In this document: piece after piece, positions 33,533 through 37,288 of the stretch
Numbering within the stretch: the stretch's first letter is position 1
Layout: every line of letters starts with the position of its first letter
Assembly (NCBI RefSeq): GCF_002251795.1
Contig: NZ_NOXU01000031.1
Span: 124,001-188,000, forward strand
Direction: 5' to 3'
DNA from: Niveispirillum lacus
Lineage (GTDB): Bacteria; Pseudomonadota; Alphaproteobacteria; Azospirillales; Azospirillaceae
DNA length: 64,000 nt
The notes under the pieces: model-generated
Told to the model about the DNA's origin: nothing
The model's database searches: none
What the model saw: only the letters and a program-made list of their open reading frames with translations
Translations under genes and position numbers: made by a program

Positions 33533-33975
33533 CGCGTGGCTCCATACTTCGCCAGGATCACCGGCCCTTCGGGCTGACGGCGTGACGGGGCGGAAGGAAC
33601 GGGGGGCGCCTTTGGCATCGGCGCGCGGTCGATCATGTCGGGCGCACGGCTGCCGGGTTTGCGGCTAGGGATCGGGGTGAAGGGCGGCGGCTGGTTCGGG
33701 TCCTTGTCTGGCAAACCAGCCAGATTGGCGATCTGGGCAGCGTTGGTCGCCTGTAAAAGAAGATGTTCAGCGGACAGTTTTTCCAGACGGGTCGGGTCGT
33801 TGAGATAAGCCCATTCCGCCTTGAGCACCTGAATGGCCTCCTGCTCCGACACGATGGCGCGGTTCAGGCGAGACAGTTCCTGCTCCTGCTCCTGTGCCTT
33901 GTAGCTGGTCTGGTACAGGATGCCGCTGGCGGCACAGGACACGGCGATCCAGACGATGGTGGACTTCCCGATCAT
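33529..33975 (-). CDS. ftsL: Cell division protein FtsL
   Basis: A 148-residue bitopic protein of the FtsQLB subcomplex. One membrane helix near the N-terminus ([20 protein letters not shown]) leads into a coiled coil ([20 protein letters not shown]) and the typical [20 protein letters not shown] segment. A Pro-rich tail of about 60 residues is longer than in enteric FtsL but common in Alphaproteobacteria. It overlaps rsmH and ftsI by four bases each (ATGA). Confidence 0.92.
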
Positions 33976-34940
33976 GCGGCTTCTCCCTGTGCCCAGGCTG
34001 GCGCCTCGGTACGGATGGCGGTGCGCAGCCGGGCGGACCGGGCGCGCGGGTTGCGGGCCTGCTCTTCGGCACCCGGACCGGTGCCGGATTTGGACAACAG
34101 GCGGAAGGTGGGGGCAGGGCCGGTTGCGGCCGGGCCGGGCATATGGCGCGACGGGCCCGGCAAATTGCCTGACCGTTCACGCATGAAGTCCTTGACCAAC
34201 CGGTCTTCCAGCGAATGGAAGGTGACAACGCACAACCGACCGCCCGGCGACAGCAGCCGTTCAGCAGCAGCCAGCGCGCGTTCCAACTCGCCCAGTTCGT
34301 CATTCACATGAATACGCAGTCCCTGGAAACTGCGGGTCGCCGGGTCGATCCCGTCCTTGGATTTCGGCACGCAGGACCGGATGACATCAGCCAGGTCGCT
34401 GGTGCGCTCAAACTTCTGTTCCGCGCGGCGCAGGACGATGGCGCGGGCCACCCGCCGGGACAGCCGTTCCTCGCCATATCGATAAAAGATATCGGCTAGC
34501 TCCGTCTCATCTGCGCTATTCACGACATCGGCCGCAGTCGGGCCGGTATTGCCCATGCGCATGTCCAGCGGCCCATCGAAGCGGAAGCTGAACCCGCGTT
34601 CCGGTGTATCAATCTGTGGTGAAGACACACCGATATCCAGAACGATGGCATCGACCTTGGTTACGCCGACCATCGCCAACAGTGCTTCCATGTCCCCGAA
34701 ACAGCCATTCAGCAGGGTCAGGCGCGGTGCATAGGCCTGAATCAGTGGCTGGGCGCGTTCATGGGCAGCCGGGTCACGGTCGATCGCGAACAGGCGAATT
34801 GCGGCACTGTCCAGCAGGGCGCGGCTGTACCCCCCCGCCCCAAAGGTGCCGTCTACCACCGTCTCCCCGGTACGGACGGCCATGTCATGGACGATTTCGT
34901 TCAAAAGTACGGGGATATGGACGGGCTGGTGGCTCATCAT
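33972..34940 (-). CDS. rsmH: 16S rRNA (cytosine-1402 N4) methyltransferase RsmH (MraW)
   Basis: A 322-residue SAM-dependent methyltransferase acting on the ribosomal P site. [13 protein letters not shown], the SAM loop [34 protein letters not shown] and the C-terminal [18 protein letters not shown] motif are all present. Two in-frame ATGs (34940 and 34937) overlap the mraZ stop in slightly different ways; either implies coupling with mraZ. Confidence 0.97.
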
Positions 34941-35428
34941 TCCCCCTTCGCCAGGCCCTTGGCCTTGGCCAGCACAGTTGAAAGGGAGATGTTGTTGGTC
35001 CGGGCCTGTTCACGCACCGCCTGTTCGTGGGCGGCAAACGCGACCGGGTCCCACAATTGGAACGTATTGCGCCGACCGATGAAGGTTACATTCTCGGTGA
35101 TTCCGGCGAAATTCATCAGGTGGTCAGGCAGGACCACACGACCCTCGGGATCCAGCGTCAATTGTGCCGACTGACCATAGACTGTGGTCTCGATCAGTTC
35201 GCGCTCATCATCCGGCATGTTCGGATTGTCCAGCGCCTCTGACAGCTTCTCCAGGTAAGACAGCGGAGCCGCATCCAGGGCGAGTGCCTTCAGCGAGGGG
35301 AAGACCACCATTTCCGTGGGCGCACCGGCTTCCAGCCCTGCCGACAAGGTCGAGCGGAAGGGAGCGGGGATAGATACCCGACCCTTCTTGTCAACCTTGT
35401 TGACATATGTGGACAGGAACAAGCCCAT
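34937..35428 (-). CDS. mraZ: Division and cell wall cluster repressor MraZ
   Basis: A 163-residue AbrB-like DNA-binding protein forming ring-shaped oligomers; it represses its own cluster in studied bacteria. Two SpoVT/AbrB-like repeats are seen: [17 protein letters not shown] near the N-terminus and [19 protein letters not shown] in the second half, each with the DXXGR core. The ATG at 35428 follows AAGGTGGGG; an in-frame GTG sits just before it. A 10-bp-phased TGGG array about 105 bases upstream is its likely operator. Confidence 0.96.
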
Positions 35429-35532: not shown

Positions 35533-35607
35533 TGGGCATGAATGGGCTGATGGTCCCTGTCATTGGGTAGGTATGGGATATCATGGGAAATCGTGGGCGG
35601 TAAAGGG
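35533..35607 (-). promoter_or_regulatory. MraZ operator array (phased TGGG repeats)
   Basis: TGGG occurs at 35533, 35543, 35564, 35574, 35584 and 35594, with a degenerate AGGG at 35604. The last run is spaced exactly 10 bases, that is TGGGN-N5 repeats, the arrangement described for MraZ-binding repeats in Escherichia coli. It lies 105-180 bases upstream of mraZ. The TGGG strand is the one opposite to the mraZ coding strand. Confidence 0.8.
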
Positions 35608-35960: not shown

Positions 35961-36071
35961 AGCGGACTAATCCGGTTAATTTGCTGGGGTTGTGGCTGTG
36001 ATGCTGCTCACACCCTCTTTATGTTTTGTAAATATATTCACCCGAACTCGTGCGGTGCAGCAAGATAAAGA

Positions 36072-36497
36072 GCCAGACGGTCTGTAAGCCGGGTTCTGTC
36101 CACCGGACCATATCCCACCTGTGGATGGTATCCGGGGGATGGTCATTCCTCTGGGATGCCCATTGCTGGACACCTCGCGCAACCCACCCGGACGACAGCG
36201 CGGAAGTGCGCCTGGGCGTTGCCGCCCATGCCGTCCCTATTCGGTTTTGCTCCCGGTGGGGTTTACCATGCCAACCCTGTCGCCAGGGTCGCGGTGCGCT
36301 TTTACCGCACCCTTTCACCCTTACCGAAATCCAGTAGTCCCAAGGGGTTACTGGCGTCGGCGGTCTGCTCTCTGTGGCACTTTCCCTGGGGTCGCCCCCG
36401 CCGGGCGTTACCCGGCACCGTACTTCCGTGGAGCCCGGACTTTCCTCCCCCATGCGGGTTTCCCCATTGCATGAGAGCGACCATCCGACCGTCTGGC
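36072..36497 (-). ncRNA. rnpB: RNase P RNA
   Basis: Catalytic RNA of ribonuclease P, which matures tRNA 5' ends. On the minus strand the 5' conserved block GAGGAAAGTCCGGGCTCC (plus 36430-36450 region) and the 3' block CAGAACCCGGCTTACAGAC (plus 36079-36097) are both diagnostic of bacterial type A. The ends were set by the P1 helix: GCCAGACGGTC at the 5' end pairs perfectly with GACCGTCTGGC at the 3' end (36487-36497 with 36072-36082). Length about 426 bases. Several long open frames cross it on both strands and are not genes. Confidence 0.95.
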
Positions 36498-36538: not shown

Positions 36539-37288
36539 TCAGATGCCCGAGTCTCTGACCAGCGCGCGCAATGCGGCGACCGTATTGTGGTCGATGCCCT
36601 TGCCCATGCTGGTCGGCATCCAATGGCGCTGAAAGGCGGACAAGGCGGCTTCGGCGCTGTCGTCCCATGTTTTCCCATCGGCGATGTGCGCGTCCCATGA
36701 AATCCCATCCGGGGCCACGCAATAACCGAACCGCTCCAGCAATCGGGCGATCTCGTCTTTTTCCCATGCCATCCCATCGGCCGGGCGGGGGTCGGGCCAC
36801 AATCCCACGCCCGCCATGGCCAGGCCCAGCCAGTCGAACAGCTCGCCCGGGTCCTGTTTGCGCGAGGGGGCAATATCGGAATGGCCGAGCACCCGATGGG
36901 CCGGTATGGGATACAGCGACAAAAGGTGCGTCGCCAGATTGACCAGGGCACGCATCTGCGCCTCCGGAAAGGGCCGGTATCCCCATTCATGGCCGGGATT
37001 GACCAGTTCGATCCCGAGGGACCGGCTGTTGATATCGCTCTCGCCGGCCCAACGGGAGGCGCCGGCATGCCAGGCACGGCGATCATCGGGAACCAGTTGG
37101 AAGATGCGGCCATCCTCCTCGATCATGTAATGGGCGCTGACCTGTGCCGCCGGATCGCACATGCGTGCCAGCGCCGATGGCCCGTCCTGCATGCCCGTAT
37201 AATGGATGACCAGCATATCCGGCGGCCCCTCTATCCGGCGGGGGCCATGGTTGGGGCTGGGATGGGGGATGAGATCGCGTATCGACAT
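36539..37288 (-). CDS. N-acetylmuramoyl-L-alanine amidase (AmiD/AmpD type) with C-terminal binding domain
   Basis: A 249-residue zinc amidase_2 protein cutting the MurNAc-L-Ala bond. Zinc ligands are His29 in LVIHYTG, His in RVLGHSDIAPSRKQDPG, and the following Asp. SRSLGIELVNPGHEW is the conserved core. A C-terminal peptidoglycan-binding-like segment (AALSAFQRHWMP) follows a region with three DGxxW motifs: DGMAWEKDE, DGISWDAH and DGKTWDDS. There is no signal peptide, which favours a cytoplasmic recycling role (AmpD-like). The DNA encoding the DGxxW motifs repeats the MraZ-type operator sequence. Confidence 0.9.
   Translation of the reverse strand: MSIRDLIPHPSPNHGPRRIEGPPDMLVIHYTGMQDGPSALARMCDPAAQVSAHYMIEEDGRIFQLVPDDRRAWHAGASRWAGESDINSRSLGIELVNPGHEWGYRPFPEAQMRALVNLATHLLSLYPIPAHRVLGHSDIAPSRKQDPGELFDWLGLAMAGVGLWPDPRPADGMAWEKDEIARLLERFGYCVAPDGISWDAHIADGKTWDDSAEAALSAFQRHWMPTSMGKGIDHNTVAALRALVRDSGI
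36662..36807 (-). promoter_or_regulatory. Three MraZ-box-like pairs inside the amidase gene
   Basis: On the minus strand, ATGGGA-NNN-CATGGGA occurs three times. The plus-strand TCCCA starts are 36663/36673, 36693/36703 and 36762/36772; a single TCCCA lies at 36803. Each pair has the exact 10-base period seen in the mraZ leader, where the same 16-base pattern occurs once. It is upstream of rnpB and mraZ in the direction of transcription. Confidence 0.5.

Follow-up and report, generated by a model that had tools for sequence, protein, structure and literature searches.

Two-box sites resembling MraZ operators inside the amidase gene near mraZ in Niveispirillum lacus: candidate auxiliary operators of the division operon

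MraZ is among the most widespread regulators of bacterial cell division and is known as a repressor that binds beside its own promoter. Control from additional sites is familiar from other systems: lac, gal and similar repressors, which are multimeric, use auxiliary operators near the main operator, some of them in coding DNA. MraZ binds repeats with a 10-base period in Burkholderia cenocepacia (PMC7761207) and in mycoplasmas (PMC5282649), and boxes before mraZ are already known (PMC7761207, PMC5282649, PMC8475190). The titles of solved Mycoplasma genitalium complexes (PDB 9r4j, 9sz7) place MraZ on the promoter, including a four-box promoter.

The window considered here is the whole analysed stretch of 64,000 nucleotides of N. 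lacus DNA. Its minus strand carries, in order, genes for an EamA-type transporter and an amidase, then rnpB, mraZ and rsmH (Table 1); the open reading frames beyond rsmH are putatively ftsL and ftsI, as judged from their position and sequence. The word ATGGGA-NNN-CATGGGA occurs in three minus-strand copies in the amidase gene and in one plus-strand copy in the mraZ leader (35573-35588, spacer TAT). All of these pairs have a 10-base period, and the leader TGGG boxes lie in register at 35564, 35574, 35584 and 35594.

Table 1 Features of the N. lacus mraZ locus (positions within the window).
Feature	Positions	Strand	Remarks
Pair 1 (distal, operator-like)	36762..36777	-	ATGGGATGGCATGGGA, encodes DGMAWE in amidase; spacer TGG
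Pair 2 (distal, operator-like)	36693..36708	-	ATGGGATTTCATGGGA, encodes DGISWD in amidase; spacer TTT
Pair 3 (distal, operator-like)	36663..36678	-	ATGGGAAAACATGGGA, encodes DGKTWD in amidase; spacer AAA
Weaker amidase pair	36897..36910	+	TGGGCCGGTATGGG; strand opposite to pairs 1-3
Leader array (putative proximal operator)	35564..35597	+	Four TGGG boxes, 10-base period; overlaps inferred mraZ promoter
Inferred mraZ -10 element	35575..35580	-	TATCCC, within leader pair; from leader alignment of related loci
Inferred mraZ -35 element	35599..35604	-	TTTACC, 18 bases upstream of -10; from leader alignment
mraZ	34937..35428	-	PF02381 in two stretches; GTG 35431 is an alternative possible start
N-acetylmuramoyl-L-alanine amidase gene	36539..37288	-	PF01510; distal pairs in its C-terminal part
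rnpB	36069..36496	-	Class A RNase P RNA; lies between the amidase gene and mraZ
rsmH (mraW)	33972..34940	-	Distal pair present in the gene of several other genera, none in the N. lacus genome

An earlier sequence-only reading of this DNA had reported the three amidase repeats, the leader copy in opposite orientation and the peptides that the repeats encode, and all of these (words, coordinates, period and peptides) were verified. The pattern exceeds chance and the observation is real: the 13-base word had four matches in the 4,971,122-base genome, all at the mraZ locus, and its reversed control had none. The weaker word TGGGA-N5-TGGGA is not specific on its own, with seven genome matches (three of them elsewhere) and six for the reversed control. 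A whole-genome query with a three-box TGGGA array found no match in N. lacus because only two of the four leader boxes read TGGGA. Counterparts of the amidase pairs exist in related genomes: pair 1 at the equivalent position in G003, G005 and G006, and also in G010 with a CGG spacer; an ISW pair, as in pair 2, in G001, G002 and G009; and a pair similar to the weaker one in G003, G005, G006 and G010.

Across relatives, the word stays close to mraZ. Among 59 genomes (N. lacus included) it occurred in 37, in 72 copies, and all controls gave none; 69 copies shared a contig with mraZ and lay within -2,258 to +582 bp of the MraZ domain; the remaining three were on a split G003 contig that also bears the amidase and part of rnpB. 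The larger family set (82 genomes) held 135 copies in 74 genomes against one control match, with 134 at the mraZ locus or on the split-off G003 piece and one elsewhere (G079). Copies on the mraZ contig numbered 131, between -3,745 and +583, of which 95 were distal and 36 within leader range. A distal copy was present on the mraZ contig in 69 of the 82 genomes (70 with G003) and in 10 of 13 genera; 12 genomes had no exact distal word, G003 being counted as having one. Relaxed pairs outside the leader numbered 95 in 35 family genomes, compared with 1.77 on average and at most 6 in 200 dinucleotide shuffles, and were found in 32 of the 35, being absent from G015, G016 and G032; the genomes in all of these sets are mutually related, so that counts are not independent and p-values should not be taken literally. 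In 38 loci (35 from the family, three from other families), ATGGG-N5-ATGGG occurred neither beyond -3.5 kb or +1 kb nor in the first 500 bases of mraZ. A dispersed genomic repeat was also considered and is rejected, since almost every copy in the family lies at the mraZ locus. A looser pattern, TGGG-N6-TGGG, had 18 copies (0.20 per kb) in the stretch from 2.5 to 5 kb downstream of mraZ, spread over 16 of the 38 loci, a density above that of most other far stretches; none of these copies fits ATGGG-N5-ATGGG.

The distal pairs change place between lineages, occurring in the amidase gene, in rnpB, in the gap upstream of mraZ or in rsmH, mostly 0.2-1.3 kb from the mraZ promoter. The genus of N. 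lacus and genera g3, g10 and g13 have pairs in the amidase gene, some of them also in rnpB or rsmH; g2 (Nitrospirillum-type) and g12 (Azospirillum-type) carry theirs chiefly in the gap that precedes mraZ, and G017 (g8, Skermanella-type) has one pair within the initial 40 bases of rnpB and another in rsmH. In several genomes the locus carries two or three pairs. The orientation of the boxes and their exact distance differ, with no fixed loop geometry seen, and some pairs lie far off, at 1.9 kb (G004) and about 3.4 kb (G085). The mainly conserved feature is nearness to the mraZ promoter and not the host gene. Amidase genes about 3-4 kb from mraZ carry a pair in G085 (exact) and in G013 and G031 (weak), and a pattern scan found no such pair in the amidase genes of G011 and G028, which lie about 6 and 10 kb from mraZ. 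The sequence-only reading had proposed that an operator in the amidase gene links wall recycling and rnpB with division; this link does not fit the amidases without a pair, nor the genera in which the upstream gap, rnpB or rsmH is the host. In rnpB itself, TGGG-N6-TGGG pairs were seen in some genera (loci L078, L084, L092 and L087) at RNA position ~153-161, or 27-36 in the Skermanella type, and N. lacus rnpB has AGGGACGGCATGGG at position 259.

In rsmH the exact word falls at the MRMGxxGP motif, where it is incompatible with the proline codon. GP was present in 25 of 38 genes; of the 13 without it, five (from g3, g4 and g8) have the exact word and eight do not, so that the proline change may be permitted and not driven by the site. 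Where the exact word is present (L084, L085, L087, L095 and L100), GP is replaced by GT, GK or GM. The word also occurs at a similar distance within rsmH in two other families (G134 and G114).

The word might simply follow from the amidase protein, a repeated DGxxW[DE] peptide coming to resemble an operator through chance codon choice: the peptide is repeated, its tryptophan codon fixes TGG, and about 0.3 relaxed pairs per gene are expected here from resampling with the same protein, or 0.46 from shuffling the gene's own codons. We therefore compared 30 amidase orthologues, of which 17 carry xGxxW[D/E] peptides at varying positions, one to three per gene, giving 38 sites chosen by peptide alone. 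At these sites the glycine codon was GGG in 37 of 38 cases (vs 86/368 in the rest of these genes); where glycine was preceded by D, H, Y or N, the codon of that residue ended in T in 31/33 (vs 301/641); and where the fourth residue was A, T, S or P, its codon ended in A in 30/34 (vs 54/1,196). Synonymous resampling, in which codons were redrawn with local usage and the protein was held constant, gave 0.27 expected exact words over 29 amidase regions (26 observed) and 0.02 over 38 rsmH regions (5 observed); for relaxed TGGGA-N5-TGGG the values were 3.87 (40 observed) in the amidase and 0.12 (10 observed) in rsmH. Shuffling the N. lacus amidase's own codons 2,000 times, which yields higher expectations than local-usage resampling, gave 0.06 exact words (P 0) and the 0.46 relaxed pairs cited above (P 0.001). 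Some pairs in single genes were not significant, such as relaxed pairs in the G019 and G031 amidases (P 0.06-0.13).

Chance mimicry by the peptide is rejected on these codon counts and resampling results and is scarcely credible: the same word also occurs in non-coding gaps and in rsmH, and descent of a shared set of codons fits poorly with pair positions and copy numbers that differ between genera, which indicate that the pairs are not one frozen event. The sequence-only reading had itself named an adverse outcome, namely orthologues that keep the DGxxW peptide and lose the TGGGA bases. This was not found in the 30 orthologues, the 17 peptide-bearing amidases keeping the synonymous bases at nearly all 38 sites. 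That bases are kept where the protein does not need them suggests that distant sites may help to control the operon, in addition to those at its promoter.

Leader and distal sites differ in form. Of 68 leaders, 49 fit a pattern that includes TA[C/T]CCC (this part of the consensus being preselected by the pattern), and 38 of these 49 have TTGAC upstream of it by 17 or 18 bases; the inferred -10 element begins with the TAN spacer of the leader pair. Across 40 loci plus G085, three of them from other families, 31 of 35 leader pairs belonged to arrays of at least three boxes and 22 of 35 had a TAN spacer, while distal pairs had two boxes only in 55/55 cases and a TAN spacer in 0/55. The class loci selected for follow-up behaved similarly (leader pairs in arrays of at least three boxes in 22/29, distal pairs two-box only in 17/17). 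With arrays and TAN spacers on one side and bare two-box pairs on the other, the leader looks like an operator over a promoter and the distal pairs look like bare binding sites. A second promoter or duplicated leader at the distal sites is unlikely, given that these lack both the TAN spacer of the -10 element and the extra boxes.

The protein encoded at the locus has the expected form of MraZ. N. lacus MraZ matches PF02381 with 62 bits in two stretches, and its fold, predicted with high confidence, matches solved MraZ structures. Both DxxGR motifs are present, with D13, G16, R17 and D93, G96, R97 invariant in 28 sequences; these motifs have a role in DNA contact.

We consider it likely that the three amidase pairs are auxiliary (distal) MraZ operators serving the mraZ/dcw promoter, with MraZ binding and looping as the proposed means. 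A ring-forming MraZ would bind the leader array lying over the mraZ promoter and would also contact one or more of the two-box sites, mostly 0.2-1.3 kb away; the second contact would raise promoter occupancy through local concentration or close a repression loop, tightening autorepression of the division operon. Help in repression would probably come through looping, and the location inside the amidase gene would be incidental. Our data point this way through near-confinement to the locus within the family, retention at the level of bases, recurrence of two-box pairs in different hosts, and a box and period like those of the promoter array: TGGG boxes with a 10-base period stand before mraZ, the same box and period recur at the distal sites, and the extra site is near the main operator and conserved with it. 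Evidence on the other side consists of varying orientation and distance, far pairs (1.9-3.4 kb), three of 35 genomes without a relaxed distal pair, and E. coli, whose mraZ locus has no distal pair. The distal operator that the sequence-only reading had suggested within the amidase is thus well supported at the DNA level by codons and near-confinement; its proposed tie to wall recycling and rnpB is not supported.

Other roles for the distal pairs must be weighed against auxiliary operators. The pairs might be MraZ sites that regulate a neighbouring gene (the amidase or rnpB) or block read-through into mraZ without serving the mraZ promoter. The N. lacus pairs lie inside the amidase gene, 167-281 bases upstream of rnpB, a bound protein could act as a roadblock, and amidases as far as ~3-4 kb from mraZ keep a pair; against this, other genera have their pairs in the gap before mraZ or beyond it in rsmH, and the two more distant amidase genes have none, so we regard such a role as unlikely. 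Distinctly less probable is binding of the word by another regulator of dcw promoters in place of MraZ. The leader boxes are oriented opposite to those of E. coli, and MraZ binding to the word is deduced from sequence; however, box and period resemble published MraZ sites, and the word, present in 37 of the 54 genomes with an MraZ match, is absent from the five of the 59 without one, which is weak support as four of the five are smaller than 2 Mb. Decoys that titrate MraZ would suit the several genomes that have two or three pairs at the locus, yet decoys could sit anywhere in the genome and 134 of 135 copies map to the locus or to the piece split from it; we give this role very little credence.

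Beyond the family, the word was found in 123 of 387 class genomes (reversed control, two copies) and in 40 of 397 phylum genomes, class members included (49 copies vs nine control copies). A follow-up sample comprised 37 regions from 36 class genomes, mostly with non-TAN spacers, and three family regions (40 in total). Eight of the 37 class regions had no mraZ or rsmH match, so that the word is off-locus there or the genes were missed; of the three family regions, two gave no such match either: G079, which holds the off-locus copy, and G103, represented by a 107-base fragment. Pairs outside the leader and less than 1 kb from mraZ, exact or one base short, occurred in 13 of the 36 class genomes, from nine other families, a sample that was selected and yields no frequency. 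In another family, G767 and G683 have a word with a TAT spacer and, ~236 bases away on the other strand, one with an AAA spacer.

For the family as a whole, we propose with moderate confidence that two-box auxiliary operators are spread across the locus in protein-coding DNA and, in some genera, also in the RNase P RNA gene, and are bridged by the MraZ ring to the promoter array, and that selection for these sites dictates amidase codons and may have replaced the usual RsmH proline. Conserved distal sites, if real, would mean that remote sites act on the head of the division operon, would point to a function for the many DNA-binding faces of the ring, and would offer an example of one regulatory site written into several different genes. 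MraZ boxes before mraZ and auxiliary operators as a kind are already known; the open-licence literature that we searched, which omits most subscription journals, yielded no description of distal MraZ operators.

Compared with known MraZ operators (E. coli; B. cenocepacia, PMC7761207; mycoplasmas, PMC5282649 and PMC8475190), this locus likewise has TGGG/GTG boxes with a 10-base period ahead of mraZ. The sites described there are at the promoter, whereas here there are also two-box pairs, mostly 0.2-1.3 kb off and many of them intragenic; similarly, the titles of the M. genitalium MraZ-promoter complexes (PDB 9r4j, 9sz7) name no distal site. The leader boxes point away from mraZ here (35564-35597) and towards it in E. 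coli (L110). The arrangement also resembles the auxiliary operators of lac, gal and similar repressors, which are likewise secondary sites near a main operator, in some cases inside coding DNA, and are bound by a multimeric repressor; looping is our proposal for the locus described here. It differs from them in the protein involved, and in that the host gene here varies from genus to genus and codon choice maintains the sites.
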